A stretch of 13,398 bases of DNA from Oscillospiraceae bacterium (GTDB lineage Bacteria; Bacillota_A; Clostridia; Oscillospirales; Oscillospiraceae). The translations under genes and the position numbers were made by a program. Shown piece after piece: positions 5,421 through 13,174 of the stretch. Positions within the stretch are counted from its first letter, which is position 1, and each line of letters starts with the position of its first letter. The notes beneath the pieces are model-generated. The model saw nothing but the letters and a program-made list of their open reading frames with translations, did not search any database and was not told the DNA's origin. The DNA lies in assembly GCA_017939025.1 (NCBI GenBank), contig JAGBAI010000077.1:1-13398 (forward strand), written 5' to 3'.

Positions 5421-5699
5421 TCACACACTATCGTGTCCCAATTCCTTCAGAACCTCAGCCAGCATGTTATTGCCCTGCTCGAAACAGGCAACGGCATCCA
5501 TAACCTTATGATACGAAGCATGGCTTCCGGCTTCATCCAGCTTCACAGCCAGATCTGCCAGTTCCTTGGCATGAGCTGCGTTATGGCCGGTCATGTACTT
5601 CATCAGAGCCAGCAGTTCCTCCATAGGAGTATGGCTGTGATGATGATCGTGTTCATGGGTATGCGTATGATGCTGATCATGGAAATGATGTTCGTGCAT
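5421..5699 (-). CDS. Possible separate His-rich protein from an internal start
   Basis: An in-frame ATG at 5699-5697 lies exactly where the ATPase domain ends and the His-rich part begins. It has a fine ribosome binding site (GGAG at 5712-5709, nine bases upstream). Translation from here gives 92 residues: MHEHHFHDQHH-type metal-binding head, then a helical domain with KYMTGHNAAHAKELADLA and a FEQGN motif. Small His-rich proteins of similar pattern sit next to cobalt and nickel transport genes in Clostridia (recalled, not searched). The fused form may have arisen by loss of the ATPase stop codon, or both forms may be made on purpose. There is no proof that the internal start is used. Confidence 0.4.
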   Translation of the reverse strand: MHEHHFHDQHHTHTHEHDHHHSHTPMEELLALMKYMTGHNAAHAKELADLAVKLDEAGSHASYHKVMDAVACFEQGNNMLAEVLKELGHDSV

Positions 5700-6341
5700 G
5701 GTTTCTGTCTCCTTTTCCCTTGTCACATTTATATATTCCTGCCGGGACAAATCATAAATCCTGTCGGCAATTCTATTGGCTACATGCCAATTGTGGGTCA
5801 CAGCAATGATGCCCATGTTCCTCTTTCTGGCTTCCTCCAGAACTACATTCCAGATCTGGGCCTGGGTGATCACATCCAGCATGGTACTGATCTCATCACA
5901 GATGAGATATTCTGCACCGCTCATTAGCGCTCTTGCCACGCAGAAGCGCTGCAATTCTCCGCCGGACAGTTCCCGGGGGAACCGGTCAAGCCATGCTCGC
6001 TCAATGCCGAAGGCATCCAGCACATCTTCCTGCATTTCGCCGCTTTCCTCCAGAACCCGTTTCAATCGCCACCGGGGATTGATAGCCTTTTCAGGATGCT
6101 GATAGATCAGCTGCACCGGACAGATGCCTTTTTTCGGAAGGTGTTCTCCATCCAGCAGGATCTGCCCCTCTGTGGGTTCCAGATATCCGGACATGAGTTT
6201 CACTAGGGTGGTTTTTCCGTAACCGCTGGGAGCAAAGAGCGCAACCCGCTCTCCCCGCTCTACACTCAAGCTGATATTATTCAGAACAAATGGTTCCTTC
6301 CGGTCATAGCGGAAGGAAATATTTTTCGCTTCAAGTGGCAT
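5421..6341 (-). CDS. ABC importer ATPase fused to a His-rich metal-binding-type tail
   Basis: A 306-residue protein. Residues 1-200 are an ABC ATPase of the OppF/DppF/NikE type that drives uptake through the two permeases: Walker A APSGYGKT (37-44), signature LSGGE (125-129), Walker B YLICDE (145-150), D-loop SxMLD, and H-loop His183. From Met215 the chain changes to a stretch with 13 His in 22 residues (216-237), then a predicted helical segment of about 65 residues (PMEELLALMKYM to the end). His-rich tails of this kind are usual in nickel, cobalt or zinc handling, which suggests the importer carries a metal or metal chelate rather than peptides. The usual DppF-type C-terminal Cys domain is absent. 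It overlaps the upstream ATPase gene by 11 bases. AAAAGGAGA lies nine bases before Met215, so the tail may also be made alone. Confidence 0.88.
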   Translation of the reverse strand: MPLEAKNISFRYDRKEPFVLNNISLSVERGERVALFAPSGYGKTTLVKLMSGYLEPTEGQILLDGEHLPKKGICPVQLIYQHPEKAINPRWRLKRVLEESGEMQEDVLDAFGIERAWLDRFPRELSGGELQRFCVARALMSGAEYLICDEISTMLDVITQAQIWNVVLEEARKRNMGIIAVTHNWHVANRIADRIYDLSRQEYINVTREKETETMHEHHFHDQHHTHTHEHDHHHSHTPMEELLALMKYMTGHNAAHAKELADLAVKLDEAGSHASYHKVMDAVACFEQGNNMLAEVLKELGHDSV

Positions 6342-7266
6342 GGAAGCACCTCACTTCTCCACCGCGAATCTCTCGCGCGGGCGGAACCTGGGTTTGGCAC
6401 TGCTGCGTGGCATAGGGACATCTGGGCGCAAACAGGCAGCCCTTTGGCAGATTACCGGCATAGGGCTGGAATCCGTCGATGGGCTGGAAGCTGTTCTGGG
6501 GCAGCGCCCTCCACAAGGCTTTGCTGTAAGGGTGGCGCAGGGCATCAGGGCCGATTTTGAAATCCTTCACAGGGGCAGTTTCCACTGTGGTACCTGCGTA
6601 AAAGACTGCTACCCGGTCCGCAAATTCAAAAGCAAGGTCGATATCATGCGTTATAAGGATGACTGCCTTACCCTCGTTTGCCATTTCCCGGAACATCTGC
6701 AGCGCTTCCAATGCCTGGCCCAGGCTCATACCGGGAGTAGGTTCGTCGGCAATGATCAGCTGGGCATCCGTAATCAGAGCTGTGGATACCAGAACCCGCC
6801 TTGCCATGCCGCCGGAAAGCTGGAAGGGATAGAGATTTTCTGTTTTCTCGGGGAGCGCGAATCTCTTGAAAATTCCTCTTCTCTTATCCGTAGGATAAGG
6901 TTTTTTATGTCCGTCTGCCTGCCTGCCCACCTTCATCAGCGGGTCGAGGAAAGCAACACTCTGGGGAACCAGGGCAATTTCTGTTCCCCGCAGTCGCGCC
7001 TGATGTTCAGGTGTTAACTCCTGTCCTTTGTAATGCAGATGACCTTTTACAGTGGCATTGCCGGGTAAGATTCCTAAGATGGCAGATGCCAGCAGGCTCT
7101 TACCGGAACCGGAGGAACCGGCCACTGCTACGATCTCACCGGGACGGACGGTTAAATGTAATTCAGAGATGACCTGCAGATCCTTTTGCTCCAGGATACC
7201 GTCATACATCCGGAAAGAAACACTGAGGTCATGGATCTCCAGTAATGTTTCGTTTTTCTGTTCCAT
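6331..7266 (-). CDS. ABC importer ATPase, DppD/NikD-like
   Basis: A 311-residue ATPase, partner of the His-rich ATPase in the importer. Walker A GSSGSGKS (51-57 region), Q-loop Gln102, signature LSGGM (150-154), Walker B LIIADE (170-175), and H-loop His207. The C-terminal oligopeptide/nickel transporter domain has RHPYSKALWRALP (244-256) and four Cys (277, 283, 290, 307) that probably bind an Fe-S cluster or metal, as in other OppD/DppD-type ATPases. Two oddities: the stretch between Q-loop and signature is shorter than in peptide transporters, and the D-loop reads EPTPGMS, lacking the usual Asp. AGGAG overlapping the permease stop codon provides the ribosome binding site; the gap is five bases. 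Confidence 0.9.
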   Translation of the reverse strand: MEQKNETLLEIHDLSVSFRMYDGILEQKDLQVISELHLTVRPGEIVAVAGSSGSGKSLLASAILGILPGNATVKGHLHYKGQELTPEHQARLRGTEIALVPQSVAFLDPLMKVGRQADGHKKPYPTDKRRGIFKRFALPEKTENLYPFQLSGGMARRVLVSTALITDAQLIIADEPTPGMSLGQALEALQMFREMANEGKAVILITHDIDLAFEFADRVAVFYAGTTVETAPVKDFKIGPDALRHPYSKALWRALPQNSFQPIDGFQPYAGNLPKGCLFAPRCPYATQQCQTQVPPAREIRGGEVRCFHAT

Positions 7267-7271
7267 AGTTT

Positions 7272-8096
7272 TTACTCCTGTGCGCTGTAGGGATCCAGGA
7301 TCATTCTCAGATTGTCACCCAGTTTATCCACCAGCAGAACGATTATCAGCAGCGTCAGTCCCGGGAAGACCGCAGGCCACCAGAGGCCGGCGGATAAGTA
7401 GTTCATACTTTCTGCCAGAATAATGCCGATGGCAGGCTGGTCCGGCGGCAGACCGTAGCCCAGGAAGGAAATAGCTGCCTCATGTAAAATGGCATGGGGG
7501 AACATCAGTACCAGTCCCACAAAGAACTGGGGCAGCAGATGTGGCAGCAGATGGTTCACCAGGATCCAGCCGCTGGACTTGCCCAGTCTGCGGGATACCG
7601 CTACATACTGTTGGCTTCGAAGCTGCATCACTTCTGCACGAATCAGTCGGGCCAGGCTGCACCAGTGGGTTGCGGCCACACCGATCAGCAGGCCCTTCAG
7701 CCCTCTGCCAAAGGCAACGGAGATCAGCATAATCAGAACCATGTGAGGAACCCCCATCACCAGGTCAATAATCCAGTTGATGAGATTGTCCACTCTCCGG
7801 GAACCCATTGCCGCCGCAATGCCCACAAATACTGCAATGATTGCACTGATAACCGAAGCGATCAGACCTACAGACGTACTGACCGACAGACCCTTCAGTG
7901 TCCGGAAGAACAGGTCCCGGCCCAGGGCATCTGTTCCAAAAAGATGCTCCGTTGACGGCGGAAGTCTGGTACTGCGGATACTGGGCGCTGCCAGTTCCTC
8001 CGGCAGCAGCATACCTGCAATGTAAATGGCAATAAACAGCAATGACAGCACCATGGAAAGAGCAATCACTTTGGTTCTCCTGTTCCACTTTTTCAT
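7272..8096 (-). CDS. ABC importer permease, DppC/NikC-like
   Basis: A 274-residue inner-membrane permease. It has a first membrane segment at about 12-31, then the periplasmic-side motif HLFGTDALGRDLF (51-63) that marks the DppC/OppC/NikC family, followed by further hydrophobic segments. The EAA coupling loop that touches the ATPases is QQYVAVSRRLGKSSGWILVNHLLP, followed by HEAAISFLGYGLPPDQPAIG and a final membrane segment near LTLLIIVLLVDKLGDNLR, the usual end of this family. It starts in an ATGA overlap with the upstream permease stop, so the two are translationally coupled. Substrate cannot be told from the permease alone. Confidence 0.92.
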   Translation of the reverse strand: MKKWNRRTKVIALSMVLSLLFIAIYIAGMLLPEELAAPSIRSTRLPPSTEHLFGTDALGRDLFFRTLKGLSVSTSVGLIASVISAIIAVFVGIAAAMGSRRVDNLINWIIDLVMGVPHMVLIMLISVAFGRGLKGLLIGVAATHWCSLARLIRAEVMQLRSQQYVAVSRRLGKSSGWILVNHLLPHLLPQFFVGLVLMFPHAILHEAAISFLGYGLPPDQPAIGIILAESMNYLSAGLWWPAVFPGLTLLIIVLLVDKLGDNLRMILDPYSAQE

Positions 8097-9088
8097 TGGG
8101 CCACCTCCCGGATCTGCGGATCAATGATTCCGTAAAGCAGATTGGCGATCATATTACCAACACATACGAATAATGCAGAAAACAATGTCACCCCCAGAAG
8201 CAGCGGCACATCACACCGAAGTCCGGCAGCGGATACTGCACTGCCAAGACCGGGATAGCTGAAAACATTTTCTGCCATGACACTGCCGCCGAAGAGTTCT
8301 GCAAAAGATGTAAACTGCAATGTCAGCGCCGGAAGCAGGATATTCCGCAGACCGTGCCGCCGCAGAATGGTCCATTTCCCTTCACCCCTGGCACGGGCAA
8401 AGAGGCAGTATTCGCTGCTGAGAATGTCAATCAGCTTCTGCCGGGTATGCAGGGCTATGTTGGCAAAAGACATGAGGCTTAATGTAAAGGCAGGCAGGAA
8501 CAGGTGATGCAGCCGCTGCACCAGAGTAATGTCCTCCGAACGGACACCGATAGGGCTGGAAAAGCCTACCGGAAACCAGCCCAGCTGTACTGAAAAAAAC
8601 AGAAGAAACAGCAGTCCCAGCCAGAAGGTAGGAACAGATGACAGCAGATAGCAGATCTTATTCAGGATCTTATCAGGCCACTTTTCCTGGTACATGCCCA
8701 TTACGCACCCCAGTGTAAACCCAATGATACCAGCAAACAGCCAGGCACAGCTCATCAGCGCCAGGGAGTTAATAAACCGTTCTGAGATCACATCTGCCAC
8801 AGGTCTGCGGAAGATCGCAGAATGTCCCATGTCTCCTTTCAGCAAGGAAGTGAGCCAGTTGAAATACCGCTCCACGGGCGGTTCATTGACACCCCAGTAT
8901 GTTTCCAGTTCTGCCCTCTGCTCTGCGGAGACCGCGGTACCCAAACTCATGATATACTGGCTTACCGGATCCACAGGAGAAGCGCTGATCAGTGCAAAGG
9001 CAATGATACTGACGGCCAGCAGCAGGGAAAGGAGCTTTATGGCGTTCATCAGAAATATTGTGATCAGTCGTTTTGCAGTTTCTTTCAT
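8093..9088 (-). CDS. ABC importer permease, DppB/NikB-like
   Basis: A 331-residue inner-membrane permease and partner of the DppC-like protein. An N-terminal membrane segment is followed by SPVDPVSQYI, then the long extracytoplasmic loop with WLTSLLKGDMGHS typical of DppB/OppB/NikB, then five more hydrophobic segments. The EAA loop is SSEYCLFARARGEGKWTILRRHGLRNILLP. The C-terminus GSVMAENVFSYPGLG and IIDPQIRE is standard. The second ATG (9088) is preferred over ATG 9094, because AAAGGAG ends only one or two bases before the first ATG but sits seven bases before the second. It lies 35 bases after the binding-protein gene in the same operon. Confidence 0.92.
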   Translation of the reverse strand: MKETAKRLITIFLMNAIKLLSLLLAVSIIAFALISASPVDPVSQYIMSLGTAVSAEQRAELETYWGVNEPPVERYFNWLTSLLKGDMGHSAIFRRPVADVISERFINSLALMSCAWLFAGIIGFTLGCVMGMYQEKWPDKILNKICYLLSSVPTFWLGLLFLLFFSVQLGWFPVGFSSPIGVRSEDITLVQRLHHLFLPAFTLSLMSFANIALHTRQKLIDILSSEYCLFARARGEGKWTILRRHGLRNILLPALTLQFTSFAELFGGSVMAENVFSYPGLGSAVSAAGLRCDVPLLLGVTLFSALFVCVGNMIANLLYGIIDPQIREVAQ

Positions 9089-9123
9089 AATCATACTCCT
9101 TTTGCTGCTGGCTTGGGGAATTC

Positions 9124-10734
9124 TTATGCAGTCCAGTTCCAGTTCTGGATATTCTGCAGGAAGGGGAAGTTGCTTCCGTGAGGATGAACATACTGATTAC
9201 CAATGTTCAGACCATCCCGGATAAAGTATACATGATCCAGATTGACGATCCAGACCCAGGGGCACTGCCCGATCATAGCCGTACCGGTTTCGCCGTCCCA
9301 CTGAACCTTCCGGAAATTCTCATAAGCTTCTTCCGGGGTCAGTGCCTGCCGGGCAGCTTCCAGATAACCATCGGTGACTTCACTCATGTGGCCTTCGGGG
9401 TTGTAGTAGTCATCCAGAAGAGCGCCCTTGCTTTGATACAGGAAATAGGTCTCAGAAGGGTTTGCGGCACCCCAGCCCATCATGACCGCCTCAGAGAACA
9501 TACGCAAACTGATTTCATCCCAGCTGAGGCCCTCGGGAATAACGTTGATGCCCACTTCCTTCAGAAGTTCCACACAGGCAAGCAATATTGCCTGCCGGGC
9601 AGAATCCCCGGCAGGATACATGCAGGTAAACTCCGCTTTCAGGCCGTCCTTCTCCACAATGCCGTCACCGTCAGTATCAACCCAACCGGCGTCACGAAGA
9701 AGCTGCTTTGCGTAATCCACATTGGTCTCAATTTTTACAGCAGGATTGTTCCAGGGCATACCGTCGTTTTCGGAGAATGCGGGAGTTGCATAGCCGTTCA
9801 GTGCCACATCTGCAATCAAGCTGCGGTCAATGGCATAGGCGATGGCCTGGCGGATTTCAATGTTGCAGGTAACGTTGTTGCCGATGGGTGCGCCGTTCTG
9901 AGCCACCTTGCCTTCGGCAGGAAGTACAGGCAGGGTGAAGCCGCGGCAATCAGCAGTAGCAATTCGTTCAATGTGATAGCCATTTACCTGGTTCACTGCC
10001 AGGGTTGCAGAGGTAATGGCTGCATCCACCTGGCCTGCCTGAACCGCAGCCAGGGCGGCATCTTCACCCATGAAGACGATGACCACATTCCTGATGGCGG
10101 GAACTTCCCCGTAGTAATTTTCGTTGGCTTCCAGAACCAGCTGCTCCTGGCTTCGCCATTCCACGAACTTGTAGGGGCCGGAGGTAACCGCAGGATTGGT
10201 TCCATATTCTTCAGAGTAAGCGTGCCGGGGAACGATACCAACAGATGCCAAAGTATTCAGAAACCAGAAGGTAGGGGTATTCAGTGTAATAACGACGGTA
10301 AAATCGTCTGTCGCAACGGCACTGTCCATAAAGGTCAGATCCACAGAACCCATGGCAGTCTTTGCCGTTTCCAGCGTGAAGGCCACATCCTTTGCAGTGA
10401 CCTGCTGGCCGTCGGTGAAGTAAGCATCCTCCCGGATTTTGAAGGTCCACACCAAGCCGTCCTCGGACAGGCTGTAGTCTGTAGCCAGGTCATTGACAAA
10501 AGTCATGTCCGCGTCGTAACGAACCAGGGTGCTCTGCATGATGGGCGCATTGCCATGGCCCCAACCTTTGGTGGGATCCAGAGTGGTCGGTTCATCTCCA
10601 ATGGCAATAATGACTGTGTCTCTCACTTCTTCAGGGGTTGCTTCTGCAACAGGTGCGTCTTTTGCTCCGCAGGCTACCAGACTGATTACCGTGATCATCA
10701 CTAACAGCAGAGCGATCATTCTTTTTCCATTCAT
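9124..10734 (-). CDS. ABC importer substrate-binding lipoprotein (SBP_bac_5, NikA/DppA-like)
   Basis: A 536-residue extracellular lipoprotein that delivers substrate to the importer. It has a basic N-terminus, a hydrophobic core, and the lipobox LVAC with the lipidated Cys at residue 22, followed by a short Ala/Pro-rich linker. The SBP_bac_5 fold is seen in IAIGDEPTTLDPTKGWGHG, the SEDGLVWTFKIREDAYFTDGQQVTAKDVAFTLE region, and SGPYKFVEWRSQEQLVLEANENYYG. The family binds peptides, nickel, nickel-chelates or heme. The operon's His-rich ATPase favours a metal here, but the binding site residues cannot be assigned by eye. The start has GGAAAGGA eight bases upstream. This is the first gene of the operon, behind a 116-base structured leader. 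Confidence 0.93.
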   Translation of the reverse strand: MNGKRMIALLLVMITVISLVACGAKDAPVAEATPEEVRDTVIIAIGDEPTTLDPTKGWGHGNAPIMQSTLVRYDADMTFVNDLATDYSLSEDGLVWTFKIREDAYFTDGQQVTAKDVAFTLETAKTAMGSVDLTFMDSAVATDDFTVVITLNTPTFWFLNTLASVGIVPRHAYSEEYGTNPAVTSGPYKFVEWRSQEQLVLEANENYYGEVPAIRNVVIVFMGEDAALAAVQAGQVDAAITSATLAVNQVNGYHIERIATADCRGFTLPVLPAEGKVAQNGAPIGNNVTCNIEIRQAIAYAIDRSLIADVALNGYATPAFSENDGMPWNNPAVKIETNVDYAKQLLRDAGWVDTDGDGIVEKDGLKAEFTCMYPAGDSARQAILLACVELLKEVGINVIPEGLSWDEISLRMFSEAVMMGWGAANPSETYFLYQSKGALLDDYYNPEGHMSEVTDGYLEAARQALTPEEAYENFRKVQWDGETGTAMIGQCPWVWIVNLDHVYFIRDGLNIGNQYVHPHGSNFPFLQNIQNWNWTA

Positions 10735-10851
10735 AGAAAAAATCCTTTCCTTTTTCGGTCAGGCACGATATACTATAGATGCCTGCCTTTTATTTCGCGA
10801 TAGTGGGAAGGCATTTCCCCGGTGTGGTGCCAGCCATGCCGGGGTTCCTTT
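10735..10851 (-). promoter_or_regulatory. Structured 5' leader of the importer operon
   Basis: About 116 bases separate the predicted transcription start (near 10851) and ATG 10734. CCCCGG and CCGGGG, around 10845-10816, form a hairpin with an inner TGG/CCA pair. CAGGCA and TGCCTG, around 10786-10758, form a second hairpin. GGGAA/TTCCC (about 10819-10805) can form instead of the first stem, so two folds exclude each other. CCTTCC there also nearly complements the GGAAAGG ribosome binding site. This could be a regulatory RNA, but I could not match it to the cobalamin or NiCo riboswitch consensus. Confidence 0.3.
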
Positions 10852-10857
10852 ATTGAA

Positions 10858-10886
10858 ATTATACTTTACCCCAGAAAAGTGTACAA
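10858..10886 (-). promoter_or_regulatory. Promoter of the ABC importer operon
   Basis: Reading leftward: TTGTAC (10886-10881), 17 bases, TATAAT (10863-10858). The shared box ATATCCCC-N6-GGC ends at the base directly before the -35. Confidence 0.75.
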
Positions 10887-10903
10887 GCCGGGTGGGGGGA
10901 TAT
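10887..10903 (-). promoter_or_regulatory. Shared upstream box, importer operon copy
   Basis: Reading leftward: ATATCCCC (10903-10896), six bases CCACCC, GGC (10889-10887), abutting the -35. It has the same pattern and spacing as the boxes at 11565-11581 and 11605-11621. This copy is the least palindromic in the middle. Confidence 0.6.
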
Positions 10904-10923
10904 ATTTTGATATATTTTTATCG

Positions 10924-10943
10924 ATATCCCCCCTAGGGGGATA
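10924..10943. promoter_or_regulatory. G/C-tract palindrome, distal operator candidate
   Basis: TATCCCCCCTAGGGGGATA at 10925-10943 contains the perfect palindrome CCCCCTAGGGGG (10929-10940). ATATCCCCCC (10924-10933) is also an inverted copy of GGGGGGATAT at 10894-10903, so it pairs with the promoter-proximal box. The centres of the two sites are 42 bases apart, about four helical turns. The form resembles CsoR/RcnR-family operators. Confidence 0.5.
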
Positions 10944-10955
10944 CTACTTTCATAA

Positions 10956-10997
10956 CAAAAAAGAACCCATGAGCCGTATAAGCAGCTCATGGGTTCT
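10956..10997 (-). terminator. Intrinsic terminator of the unrecognised gene
   Basis: A perfect 13 bp stem, AGAACCCATGAGC (10962-10974) with GCTCATGGGTTCT (10985-10997), ten-base loop, and a T run reading leftward (the A run at 10957-10962). The stop codon (10989-10987) is inside the stem. The plus side has TCTTTT, so it may work both ways. Confidence 0.9.
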
Positions 10998-11505
10998 CTT
11001 TTGAAAATATGCTTGTCAGAACGATTCGGTATGCGGGATTGTAAGAACGCCTGTATTGCTCACTGTGGGATACCATAGGATATCCTGCTTCCCGATATTC
11101 CTCCAGATATGCGTCCAGCTCTTCCAAAGTAAAGTGAAACACTCCGGAATCGGTGAGCTTTCGGAGTATATCCAGCTTGATCAGAAAGTCATGTTGGTTT
11201 CCTTTATGCTCTTTTGAACTGCGGATAAAGTCATCAGCCAACTGCCGGATACTATAATCGCTGCTGTCGATAGCATTGAGCATCACCCGTACCAGACCGT
11301 TTCCAATACTTTCCAGAAGCGGTGCATGAGGTTCCTGAGGTGTGTTTTTATACTCCCGCTGCAAGGCGCTGAGGCAAGTTTCCCGATCCTTTATCAAATG
11401 GCCACCGCCGAATACGTTTTGATAGATCAACTTCACCGCATCGGTTGGCTGCATCATTGGGTATTTGCTGGCATGCCATCTTAACACCTGCTCCAATGTC
11501 TCCAT
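10987..11505 (-). CDS. Unrecognised conserved-looking protein
   Basis: A 172-residue protein I cannot assign to a family. It is predicted soluble, mostly helical, with no signal peptide, membrane segment or P-loop. Notable stretches are RWHASKYPMMQPTDAVKLIYQNVFGGGH (9-36), a Gly-Gly-Gly-His turn, and SHSEQYRRSYNPAYRIV near the C-terminus. Several His, Asp and Glu residues could make a metal or phosphate site, but there is no clear motif. It starts at ATG 11505 after GGAGG with eight bases of spacing. It has its own promoter and a terminator overlapping its stop. It shares the ATATCCCC-N6-GGC box with the importer operon downstream and the divergent kinase, so it probably belongs to the same regulon. 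Confidence 0.7.
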   Translation of the reverse strand: METLEQVLRWHASKYPMMQPTDAVKLIYQNVFGGGHLIKDRETCLSALQREYKNTPQEPHAPLLESIGNGLVRVMLNAIDSSDYSIRQLADDFIRSSKEHKGNQHDFLIKLDILRKLTDSGVFHFTLEELDAYLEEYREAGYPMVSHSEQYRRSYNPAYRIVLTSIFSKENP

Positions 11506-11535
11506 ACTGCCACCTCCACTCTGATTGGTGATGCC

Positions 11536-11564
11536 ATTGTATCATGTGAAACCCCGTCAAAGAA
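11536..11564 (-). promoter_or_regulatory. Promoter of the unrecognised gene
   Basis: Reading leftward: TACAAT (11541-11536) with an extended -10 TGA before it, and a poor -35 TTCTTT (11564-11559) 17 bases upstream. The poor -35 next to the box would suit an activator or a regulated extended -10 promoter. Confidence 0.55.
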
Positions 11565-11581
11565 GCCCCCTGCGGGGATAT
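11565..11581 (-). promoter_or_regulatory. Shared upstream box, unrecognised-gene copy
   Basis: Reading leftward: ATATCCCC (11581-11574), six bases GCAGGG, GGC (11567-11565), directly next to the -35. It is one of three copies with identical spacing and lies inverted with respect to the 11605-11621 copy, 45 bases centre to centre. Confidence 0.6.
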
Positions 11582-11604
11582 TCTGTGCTACTATTTTGTA
11601 AATC

Positions 11605-11621
11605 ATATCCCCCGGTGGGGC
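11605..11621 (+). promoter_or_regulatory. Shared upstream box, kinase copy
   Basis: ATATCCCC (11605-11612), six bases CGGTGG, GGC (11619-11621), abutting the -35 TTGCAG. CCCC...GGGG makes it a fair palindrome. Confidence 0.6.
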
Positions 11622-11650
11622 TTGCAGACAGAGAACTGGGCCGATACAAT
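11622..11650 (+). promoter_or_regulatory. Promoter of the kinase gene
   Basis: TTGCAG (11622-11627), 17 bases, TACAAT (11645-11650). Transcription would begin near 11657, so the leader before the GGAGAGG ribosome binding site is only a few bases. Confidence 0.65.
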
Positions 11651-11673
11651 AAAGCCCAAAGGAGAGGATTCTC

Positions 11674-12231
11674 ATGAACAGATTGATCCCTGTACAAACC
11701 GCGATCCAGAAACTACTCTGTGAAAAAGAAGCAGTGATTGTAGCCATTGACGGAAACTGCACTTCCGGAAAGACCACCCTGGCAAACCAGCTTACAGAAA
11801 TCTATGACAGCAATGTCTTCCATATGGATGATTTCTTCCTCCGGCCAGAGCAACGTACTCTGGAACGCTTTGCCGAGATCGGCGGCAATGTGGATTATGA
11901 ACGTTTCAGTGAAGAGATTCTGCTTCCTCTGAAATCCGGAAAACCATTTTCTTATCGTCCATTTGACTGCAGCACATTTGAATTGACCGACCCTATTACG
12001 GTTATTCCAAAGAAGCTAAATATTGTTGAGGGTACCTACAGCCTGCATCCGTATTTCGGAAATATCTATGATCTGAAGATCCGTCTGACCATCTCCCCGG
12101 AACTGCAGCGTCAGCGGATTCTGAAAAGACCGGAATTTCTTCATAAACGGTTCTTTGAGGAATGGATTCCTATGGAGGAGCGGTATTTCGAAGGGTTTGA
12201 TATCTCCAAAAAGTGCGATATCGTATTATAA
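11674..12231 (+). CDS. Uridine kinase family P-loop protein
   Basis: A 185-residue P-loop kinase of the uridine kinase/phosphoribulokinase class, expected to phosphorylate a small hydroxyl-bearing molecule with ATP or GTP. Walker A GNCTSGKTT is at residues 27-35. The substrate loop FHMDDFFLRPEQRTLERF (49-66) has the double Asp typical of uridine kinases, followed by GGNVDYERF (70-78), and VEGTYSLHP (118-126) is the Walker-B-like strand. A basic lid RQRILKRPEFLHKRFFEEW (146-164) completes it. It is shorter than Udk (about 210). The true substrate is open; uridine is only the family default. Start ATG 11674 follows GGAGAGG. It is divergent from the unrecognised gene and shares its upstream box, which links it to the metal importer regulon. 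Confidence 0.85.
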   Translation: MNRLIPVQTAIQKLLCEKEAVIVAIDGNCTSGKTTLANQLTEIYDSNVFHMDDFFLRPEQRTLERFAEIGGNVDYERFSEEILLPLKSGKPFSYRPFDCSTFELTDPITVIPKKLNIVEGTYSLHPYFGNIYDLKIRLTISPELQRQRILKRPEFLHKRFFEEWIPMEERYFEGFDISKKCDIVL

Positions 12232-12275: not shown

Positions 12276-12815
12276 TTATGGAATACATTGATACCCATGA
12301 TCTTCGATCCTATACCCACAGCCGTTCTTCGGCTGCCAGTCATAGCGAGACTTGTTCTCCTCAGGGAACAGATGATCCATGATCGCTGCAATGACACCAC
12401 CATGGCAAATGAGAACGGTATCCTCTTTGATTTCTGAGAAAGCCTCCAGTACGCGCTGCTTCATCTGCAAACCGCTTTCGCCGTTGGGTGGAACATTGGC
12501 TTCGTTGTCACCTGTGCACCATATCTGATAGGCAGGGTTGTCTTTCATTTCCTCATAGCTGTGCATTTCAAAAATTCCGAAATCCACTTCCCGGAACCGG
12601 AAATCCGTGTCAAAAGGTACTTCGCCGAAGAGAATTTTCAATGTTTCATTTGTCCGCGACCTGCCACTGGTAAGAAAGCGGACGTTTTTGATTTCATAGT
12701 GCAACTGACTTAATTCCTCCCTTCCTCTTTCAGAAAGAGGCAGATCTGTGCTGCCGCAATAGAGTTTTCTTTCATTTGCCTTGGTTTTTCCGTGGCGAAT
12801 CAGATAGATCGTCAT
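12276..12815 (-). CDS. Histidine phosphatase, CobC/alpha-ribazole phosphatase-like
   Basis: A 179-residue cytosolic histidine phosphatase. The catalytic RHGKT motif is at residues 7-11, with phospho-acceptor His8. LPLSERGREE (26-35) is the usual family segment, Arg54 in TSGRSRT and Glu76 in REVDFG complete the active site, and the second His is in CHGG (137-140). In cobalamin-making bacteria, members of this group remove the phosphate from alpha-ribazole 5'-phosphate. The neighbouring CobU-like gene supports that role here, but many such phosphatases act on other substrates. The start at 12815 is set by RHG near the N-terminus and by an ATGA overlap with the upstream stop; a longer frame from 12884 would bury the start in the upstream gene. 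Confidence 0.85.
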   Translation of the reverse strand: MTIYLIRHGKTKANERKLYCGSTDLPLSERGREELSQLHYEIKNVRFLTSGRSRTNETLKILFGEVPFDTDFRFREVDFGIFEMHSYEEMKDNPAYQIWCTGDNEANVPPNGESGLQMKQRVLEAFSEIKEDTVLICHGGVIAAIMDHLFPEENKSRYDWQPKNGCGYRIEDHGYQCIP

Positions 12816-13174
12816 TTTAACCGCTGCTCCAATCCGCAGAAGATCCGGCTGACCTGGGTTGCCTCTTTGCTCAGATACTGGCACAGACGGCCTGTACGCT
12901 GCCGCCAGGCACGGTTTTCAGCCCCCATGGGAACCACACCGCAGAAGATATCCTGAAGGATCAGAATACGATCCTGCCACTGTTCCCGGTGGGCCTGGAA
13001 GTAGCCAATGGGGTCAGAGTGGTTATAGGTAAATTCTTCGATTTTGTAAATACAGCGTTTGGAAAAGTCAATCTCAGCCTCACTGCAGATATGCACATCG
13101 GTATCCGTAATGCCGAAGGTTTCTTTTGCAAAATCCAGTTTGCCCTGATAGGCTCCGCCGATAATCAGAATCAT
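12812..13174 (-). CDS. Short CobU-like protein with altered P-loop
   Basis: A 120-residue protein resembling CobU, the adenosylcobinamide kinase/guanylyltransferase of cobalamin nucleotide-loop assembly. CobU is about 180 residues, so some 60 are missing. The N-terminal loop IIGGAYQGKLDFA (4-16) matches the CobU P-loop in place but has Leu where the metal-binding Ser/Thr should follow the Lys. The block LQDIFCGVVPMGAENRAWRQRTGRLCQYLS (73-102), then VSRIFCGLEQ, closely follows the CobU C-terminal half. The middle part, with the guanylylated His, is missing. It may be a non-catalytic relative or an enzyme with a changed role. AGGAGGG lies close before ATG 13174. It is coupled by ATGA to the CobC-like phosphatase. 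Confidence 0.65.
   Translation of the reverse strand: MILIIGGAYQGKLDFAKETFGITDTDVHICSEAEIDFSKRCIYKIEEFTYNHSDPIGYFQAHREQWQDRILILQDIFCGVVPMGAENRAWRQRTGRLCQYLSKEATQVSRIFCGLEQRLK

Follow-up and report, generated by a model that had tools for sequence, protein, structure and literature searches.

Escherichia coli RcnR, a nickel/cobalt member of the CsoR/RcnR family of metal sensors, controls an exporter. For InrS of Synechocystis PCC 6803, the portion of a review cited here reports that the protein has a binding site upstream of nik and raises the expression of import genes (PMC7055735), and the same kind of excerpt describes nickel as inhibiting DNA binding by InrS, the metal-free form being the one that binds; elsewhere among bacteria, as that review says in the part cited, NikR controls nickel import (PMC7055735). 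As to operators, the cited section of a second source gives type 2 CsoR sites as TAC-X9-GTA, with G tracts and TA-type arms, and the E. coli RcnR operator as TACT-G6-N-AGTA (PMC3902906). Here we report on a repeated box in a 13,398-nucleotide contig of an Oscillospiraceae bacterium (JAGBAI010000077.1; hereafter the window), which stands at the promoters of an importer operon, an unrecognised gene and a kinase gene and very probably serves a nickel-sensing protein as its binding site on DNA. The reading that we favour, and consider likely though well short of certain, is that an InrS-like CsoR/RcnR nickel sensor owns the box, and that its metal-free form would activate import from a position near -42 and repress a putative exporter.

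The regulator that carries this box in related genomes has PDB entry 6ahx as its best match and InrS (5fmn) as its second-best solved relative, with which its Cys, His and Cys residues (predicted metal ligands) and its His-rich N-terminal extension align. What sets the present system apart from InrS is that the regulator's own promoter and many import promoters of one genus carry an operator joined, at fixed spacing, to a weak -35, and that nickel enzymes and a His-tailed EamA transporter carry a complete operator. G tracts are common to this operator and to those of CsoR, whereas the arms here are AT/AT, and at the box promoters the right arm is traded for the TTG of the weak -35. The regulator scores 33.6 bits against the NCBIfam model for RcnR, far under its cut-off of 138, and also falls far short of the cut-offs of FrmR and RicR, so we name it InrS-like only; NikR belongs to a different protein family.

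The box and its promoters in the window

The window holds exactly three copies of the box, ATATCCCC-N6-GGC: before the importer operon at 10903-10887 on the minus strand (ATATCCCCCCACCCGGC), before the unrecognised gene at 11581-11565 on the minus strand, and before the kinase gene at 11605-11621 on the plus strand. In 200 dinucleotide shuffles the mean count was 0.02 and the maximum one, none reaching three, and chance was rejected on this ground; the sequence-only reading had reported the copies at these coordinates and judged their common spacing hard to explain by chance, and its observation is confirmed. Tolerating two mismatches raises the count to 11 where 4.2 would be expected, and for that reason weight can be given to the exact sites only.

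Each box abuts a -35 hexamer that starts with TT and is followed by a 17-bp spacer and a good -10, as read directly from the sequence. The importer promoter (10858-10886, minus strand) has TTGTAC at 10886-10881 and TATAAT at 10863-10858; the promoter of the unrecognised gene (11536-11564, minus strand) has TTCTTT at 11564-11559 and TACAAT at 11541-11536; and the kinase promoter (11622-11650, plus strand) has TTGCAG at 11622-11627 and TACAAT at 11645-11650. A consensus promoter scan listed only the importer promoter among the three, with the same -10 and a -35 off by one base; in the other two the -35 hexamer is poor.

The sequence-only reading did not report a fourth site, the complete symmetric operator ATCCCCCCTAGGGGGAT (ATCCCC-N5-GGGGAT) at 10926-10942, whose centre precedes the importer -35 by 48 bp. 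By eye its flanks match the divergent partner box in the gap between kinase and importer genes at one related locus (L002) and in the gap at another (L221), and its sequence form recurs at CooS, acetyl-CoA synthase, EamA and other-genus regulator genes. What was first written as the box is a shortened version of a larger operator, which occurs intact as ATCCCC-N5-GGGGAT and fused to the -35 as ATCCCC-N6-GG(C/G)TTG.

Comparisons of the importer, kinase, regulator, CO dehydrogenase and motif counts used the genus of genome G058, represented by 136 genomes; the window's prolyl-tRNA synthetase is 86% identical to those of G058 and G482, the best among 245 sampled genomes. Importer orthologues were found in six of the 136, at 64-68% identity for near-complete matches, and all six have ATCCCC-N6-GGCTT upstream (AACCCC in one), abutting the -35, followed by 17 bp and a -10. 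The core of the importer box is identical at L002, where a kinase 72% identical to that of the window is divergent from another importer with a family 5 substrate-binding protein (SBP5; 25% identity). Both promoters in that gap carry the box, and the gene for the unrecognised protein lies directly after the second permease gene, inside a box-controlled importer cluster instead of having a box of its own.

A regulator with the box at its own promoter

The sequence-only reading had guessed at a CsoR/RcnR-type sensor while finding no regulator gene in the window; that absence stands, and the guess holds at the level of the family, because in relatives the promoter of a regulator with the PF02583 domain has this very box. 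In seven genomes a plain motif search gave 40 matches against three for the reversed control, and four promoter-type sites among them precede one kind of small protein, in which PF02583 was found in both representatives tested (96.6 and 97.1 bits; cut-off 22.8). Divergent from the regulator are genes for a CooT-like protein (PF10133) and a His-rich protein. We did not count as promoter-type those matches that fall in coding frames or in AGACTGTCAAAA-box-TTTTGACAG hairpin repeats. One genome, G634 (L132, L138 and L143), has hairpin repeats of the form AGACTGTCAAAA-CCCC...GGGG-CTTTTTGACAG that contain the box motif and explain several of the matches there.

Across the genus the regulator occurs in 112 of 136 genomes at an E value of 1e-10 or better, 109 of them with strong matches and three with a weak match only, at about 30-38% identity. 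We scored 108 of about 110 strong matches, leaving out those of G634 and G716, both of which show the box. With a strict box defined as A(A/T)CCCC-N6-GG.TT plus a -10 of at least 4/6 at 16-18 bp, 92 of the 108 loci have the strict box, nine have near variants and seven fit neither pattern. Among the seven, four (L303, L358, L363 and L368) have by eye a C-rich tract ending in CTTGC at the same place, L292 offers no more than about 200 bp of upstream sequence, and no box is visible at L260 or L290. The contig of L292, from G632, shows no box in its short upstream stretch, possibly owing to an assembly break; another contig of that genome (L213, G632:C21) has near its end a box promoter resembling the regulator promoter of G353.

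The layout of the 92 strict promoters is nearly rigid: the spacer is 17 bp in 89 and 16 bp in three, and the -10 matches at least 5/6 in 91, across 56 distinct box sequences. The invariance of CCCC, GG and TT is partly imposed by the pattern, that of the preceding A and of the G of TTG is not. None of the 92 has ACA at -35 positions 4-6, and position 4 is C in 84, T in six and A in two. As a control we took the divergent promoter of the same gaps, picked by TTG and -10 only and found in 55 of 80 gaps, which has ACA in 34 of 55 and A at position 4 in 54 of 55 (Fisher tests ignoring the kinship of the genomes, 3e-19 for ACA and 1e-36 for position 4). The control promoters lie 3 to 70 bp from the box, so that spacing is strict towards the regulator gene and variable towards its divergent neighbour. 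These divergent promoters, before CooT-like and His-rich genes (L148-L177, L248-L307), are often of a near-consensus TTGACA type at variable distance from the box.

A class II activator site has its centre near -41.5 and abuts or overlaps the -35 at fixed spacing. The centre of the box lies about 7 bp upstream of the -35, near -42, and in site position, fixed spacing and weak -35 the box promoters appear to have the layout of class II activation. The suggestion in the sequence-only reading that a place directly upstream of the -35 would suit an activator fits these comparative data.

Beyond the regulator, the pattern ATCCCC-N6-GG(C/G)TTGC occurs in 92 of the 136 genomes against three reversed-control matches. 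TTGC belonged to this search pattern, and the -35 statistics above are for that reason limited to regulators found by their protein. From the matches not beside a regulator we hand-picked 38 sites, omitting six more, of which four stand at importer orthologues already counted (G635, G321, G733 and G752) and two (G733:C77 and G752:C1) had been read earlier as not promoter-type. A -10 of at least 4/6 at 16-18 bp follows 24 of the 38, and 17 of these 24 precede import genes: four encoding SBP5, six Fec-type binding proteins or permeases, six ECF S-components and one CbiM-PDGLE. The other seven comprise one kinase, two methyltransferases and four unassigned targets; Pfam was run on representatives and the remaining targets were assigned by BLASTP, with EamA and acetyl-CoA synthase assigned by shared sequence. 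The regulon of importer, kinase and unrecognised protein first proposed thus has its shared site, and its supposed small size gives way to a genus-wide set of importers, the regulator itself, nickel enzymes and a putative exporter.

Operator position and the proposed sign of control

The complete operator ATCCCC-N5-GGGGAT occurs in 83 of the 136 genomes, with two places in the control. We read 30 loci among the matches listed and 20 more that were hand-picked; the 30 comprise 18 that precede CO dehydrogenase (CODH), three that precede an EamA transporter and nine others, several within reading frames. CODH was found in 94 of the 136 genomes, and at the 30 CODH loci read, of about 102 matches, a CCCC..GGGG site lies within 300 bp in 27 and the promoter has TTGAC(T/A) in all 30. 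The site centre, assigned at 28 loci, lies 40.5-46 bp upstream of the -35 in 20, 32.5-38.5 bp in four and about 20 bp in two, with two values apparently wrong (69 and -53.5); by our own arithmetic, sites at the main spacing lie some 3.5 helical turns away from where the box would be. At L448 and L451 the operator precedes an acetyl-CoA synthase subunit (families run on L448). Five genomes have it 0, 8, 8, 12 and 0 bp after the -10 of a gene for an EamA transporter whose long tail is rich in His (Pfam run on one).

The regulator was present in 29 of 394 genomes sampled across the order, and 24 of these loci lie outside the genus set. A complete or near-complete operator is present at the gene in eight of the 24 and absent from 16, and in seven of the eight it starts 6-15 bp after the -10 (six by script, L386 by eye), which by its position is a repressing place. 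A palindrome search in these eight genomes, chosen because the operator had already been seen at their regulator, placed seven of ten sites at the regulator and three within unrelated frames.

The operator accordingly occurs in three settings: over the -10/+1 region of the putative exporter or just after the -10 of other-genus sensor genes; joined to a weak -35 at the import genes and the sensor gene of this genus; and, at nickel enzymes, farther upstream. Should the metal-free form bind DNA, as reported for InrS, sites of the first kind would repress until nickel lifts the block, and those of the second kind would make sensible homeostasis only through activation; were the nickel-bound form to bind instead, control of either the importer or the exporter would have the wrong sign. 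The argument presupposes that the putative exporter EamA does export and that nickel is the ligand, as presumed. We regard the activator reading of the box promoters as probable, and propose that the metal-free sensor would bind all operator sites. From -42 it would help RNA polymerase where the -35 is too weak alone, and the import genes, the kinase and the unrecognised protein would be on when nickel is scarce; over the -10/+1 region it would block the putative EamA exporter. Nickel would release the sensor, turning import off and export on. The CODH sites may serve to repress nickel enzymes in scarcity, or may belong to another kind of control.

A broader proposal would have the sensor as a genus-wide class II activator whose sign is set by operator position alone, the operator having moved from a repressing to an activating place, with a nickel module of ECF component, kinase and 172-residue protein partly under its control. 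We put this forward tentatively, at close to even chances; within it, the same metal-free protein would also activate its own gene from the site fused to the poor -35.

The alternative that survives best, unlikely in our estimation, is an ordinary apo-repressor, in which the metal-free sensor blocks the -35 everywhere until nickel relieves it, as for exporters elsewhere. The box does touch the -35, and the other-genus regulators have their operators in a repressing position, with TTGC-like -35 hexamers at three of those seven promoters (one by eye) and TTGAC at four. This explanation would nevertheless have importers on when nickel is plentiful, at 17 of the 24 promoter-type targets; moreover, a repressor could work without a fixed position or a poor -35, and these two features hardly vary here, beside consensus-like promoters in the same gaps.

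Following it, and unlikely as well, is a metal-bound repressor with the logic of NikR and the fold of CsoR, the nickel-loaded sensor shutting import from the box. That logic is right for the importers and the regulator and agrees with an operator that overlaps the -35, but the operator over the EamA -10/+1 region would then shut off, at high nickel, the putative exporter; such a repressor also gives no account of the poor -35, and nickel is reported, in the excerpts cited for InrS, to inhibit DNA binding.

We give little credence to the idea that some other DNA-binding protein owns the box. It could draw on the location of the regulator gene, which is not within the window; against it, the operator follows that gene in two geometries across genera, including seven of ten places in the eight other-genus genomes chosen for that operator. 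Chance, or a repeated hairpin element without regulatory meaning, to which the many matches in coding frames and hairpin repeats might point, retains almost no probability, being contradicted already by conservation: 0.02 copies expected in the window, 40 matches against three reversed-control ones in seven genomes, and a promoter geometry kept at 92 of 108 regulator loci.

Several observations count against an InrS-like activator or narrow its reach. The CsoR/RcnR family is mostly described, in the excerpts cited, as repressors released by metal, and a regulator in the window organism itself, no gene for which lies in the window, is presumed from relatives. The motif alone is unspecific: among 30 loci of the seven-genome search only 11 were promoter-type by eye, the others lying in coding frames or repeats, and 14 of the 38 hand-picked sites are without an acceptable -10. 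Three of the 14 (L214, L225 and L241) lie upstream of CODH, with the site not beside a -35. The genomes are related, so the counts are of non-independent events. TTGC at the -35 could belong to what the protein recognises instead of marking activation, and its presence at three of seven repressing-type promoters means that it is not confined to the activator-like layout. At the EamA promoters ACA occupies -35 positions 4-6 in four of five, a count biased to consensus because the promoters were picked by best fit to TTGACA/TATAAT, and the transporter's function as a nickel exporter is our guess from its His-rich tail. The CODH geometry, with most sites 40-46 bp from a consensus-like -35, falls outside what the model explains.

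Conservation among the targets is likewise uneven: firm at the importer, it is partial at the kinase and fails at the unrecognised gene. Kinase orthologues occur in 19 of the 136 genomes, and the strict box in six of 20 loci, or five of 19 genomes; two further loci resemble box variants by eye, and the others closely follow another gene or have different promoters. An alignment search for relatives of the unrecognised protein gave 94, of which 80 loci were kept at identities of at most 59%, and closer relatives than these, 80% identical, exist as protein entries; within the 300 bp upstream of the gene, neither the strict box nor the palindrome is present at any of the 80, one of which has less than 100 bp of upstream DNA. 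The gene is thus kept without the box, including at least six relatives in the same genus (L001, L002, L003, L005, L006 and L067).

The importer, the kinase and their neighbours

The importer operon is encoded on the minus strand, and its genes were assigned by domain and family matches. The family 5 substrate-binding protein (9124-10734), whose best NCBIfam match is NikA, far under its cut-off, is followed by two permeases (8093-9094 and 7272-8096) and two ATPases (6331-7266 and 5421-6341), the second of which has a His-rich C-terminal part. This tail is 71% identical over 65 amino acids to the C-terminal part of a stand-alone His-rich protein beside the regulator of L119. The second ATPase ends in a His-rich stretch and a domain (HTPMEELLALMKYM...), and by BLASTP the same domain forms the tail of one of the two box-controlled methyltransferases. 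The importer leader (10735-10857, minus strand), of about 120 bases, contains a GC-rich hairpin (CCCCGG...CCGGGG), and leaders resembling it follow promoters at L002 and L112. A riboswitch was considered for this leader and rejected, no Rfam family reaching its gathering score over 10600-11800.

The unrecognised protein of 172 residues (10987-11505, minus strand) has no Pfam or NCBIfam match and an AlphaFold mean pLDDT of 50, and it gave no match in a viral_contigs search and none in a single-sequence genome_contigs search. The P-loop kinase of 185 residues (11674-12231, plus strand) has PRK06547, phosphoribulokinase and uridine kinase as its nearest models, all under their cut-offs. The same ECF S-component family is encoded at 30 of the 80 loci of the unrecognised gene, in 26 within about 115 bp upstream of it, and at many of these loci a kinase gene is adjacent or shares one open frame with it (for example L083 and L089). 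Such side-by-side or fused frames suggest that the two proteins act jointly, and the neighbourhood ties both to import; we propose that they act with the ECF importer component in nickel acquisition.

Beyond the kinase, genes for a CobC-like phosphatase and a CobU-like protein lie at 12276-13174 on the minus strand, so that cobalamin genes neighbour the nickel-type genes. Elsewhere in the window, an imperfect inverted repeat at 1514-1629, with ends TTGTAGGGG...CCCCTACAA, resembles a small mobile or palindromic element, and short repeats of the GCAAAATGCAGAATGC type at 2156-2185 and 2266-2294 flank the gap between a small P-loop gene (1637-2137) and proS.

We found no description of such a regulon in these bacteria in the open-licence PMC literature. 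New here are the genus-wide operator fused to the -35, the contrast with its repressing places and the targets; activation of import by a member of the family has a precedent, since InrS is reported to enhance import-gene expression. Sensors of the CsoR/RcnR type are mostly described as brakes on export, and the present operator takes repressing and activator-like places within what appears to be one regulon. The hosts of this regulon are gut bacteria with two nickel-requiring enzymes, CO dehydrogenase and acetyl-CoA synthase. This layout would offer a clean test case for a repressor fold that has turned activator, and it points to candidate nickel importers, to a candidate exporter and to a possible part in nickel acquisition for a protein previously without an assigned role.

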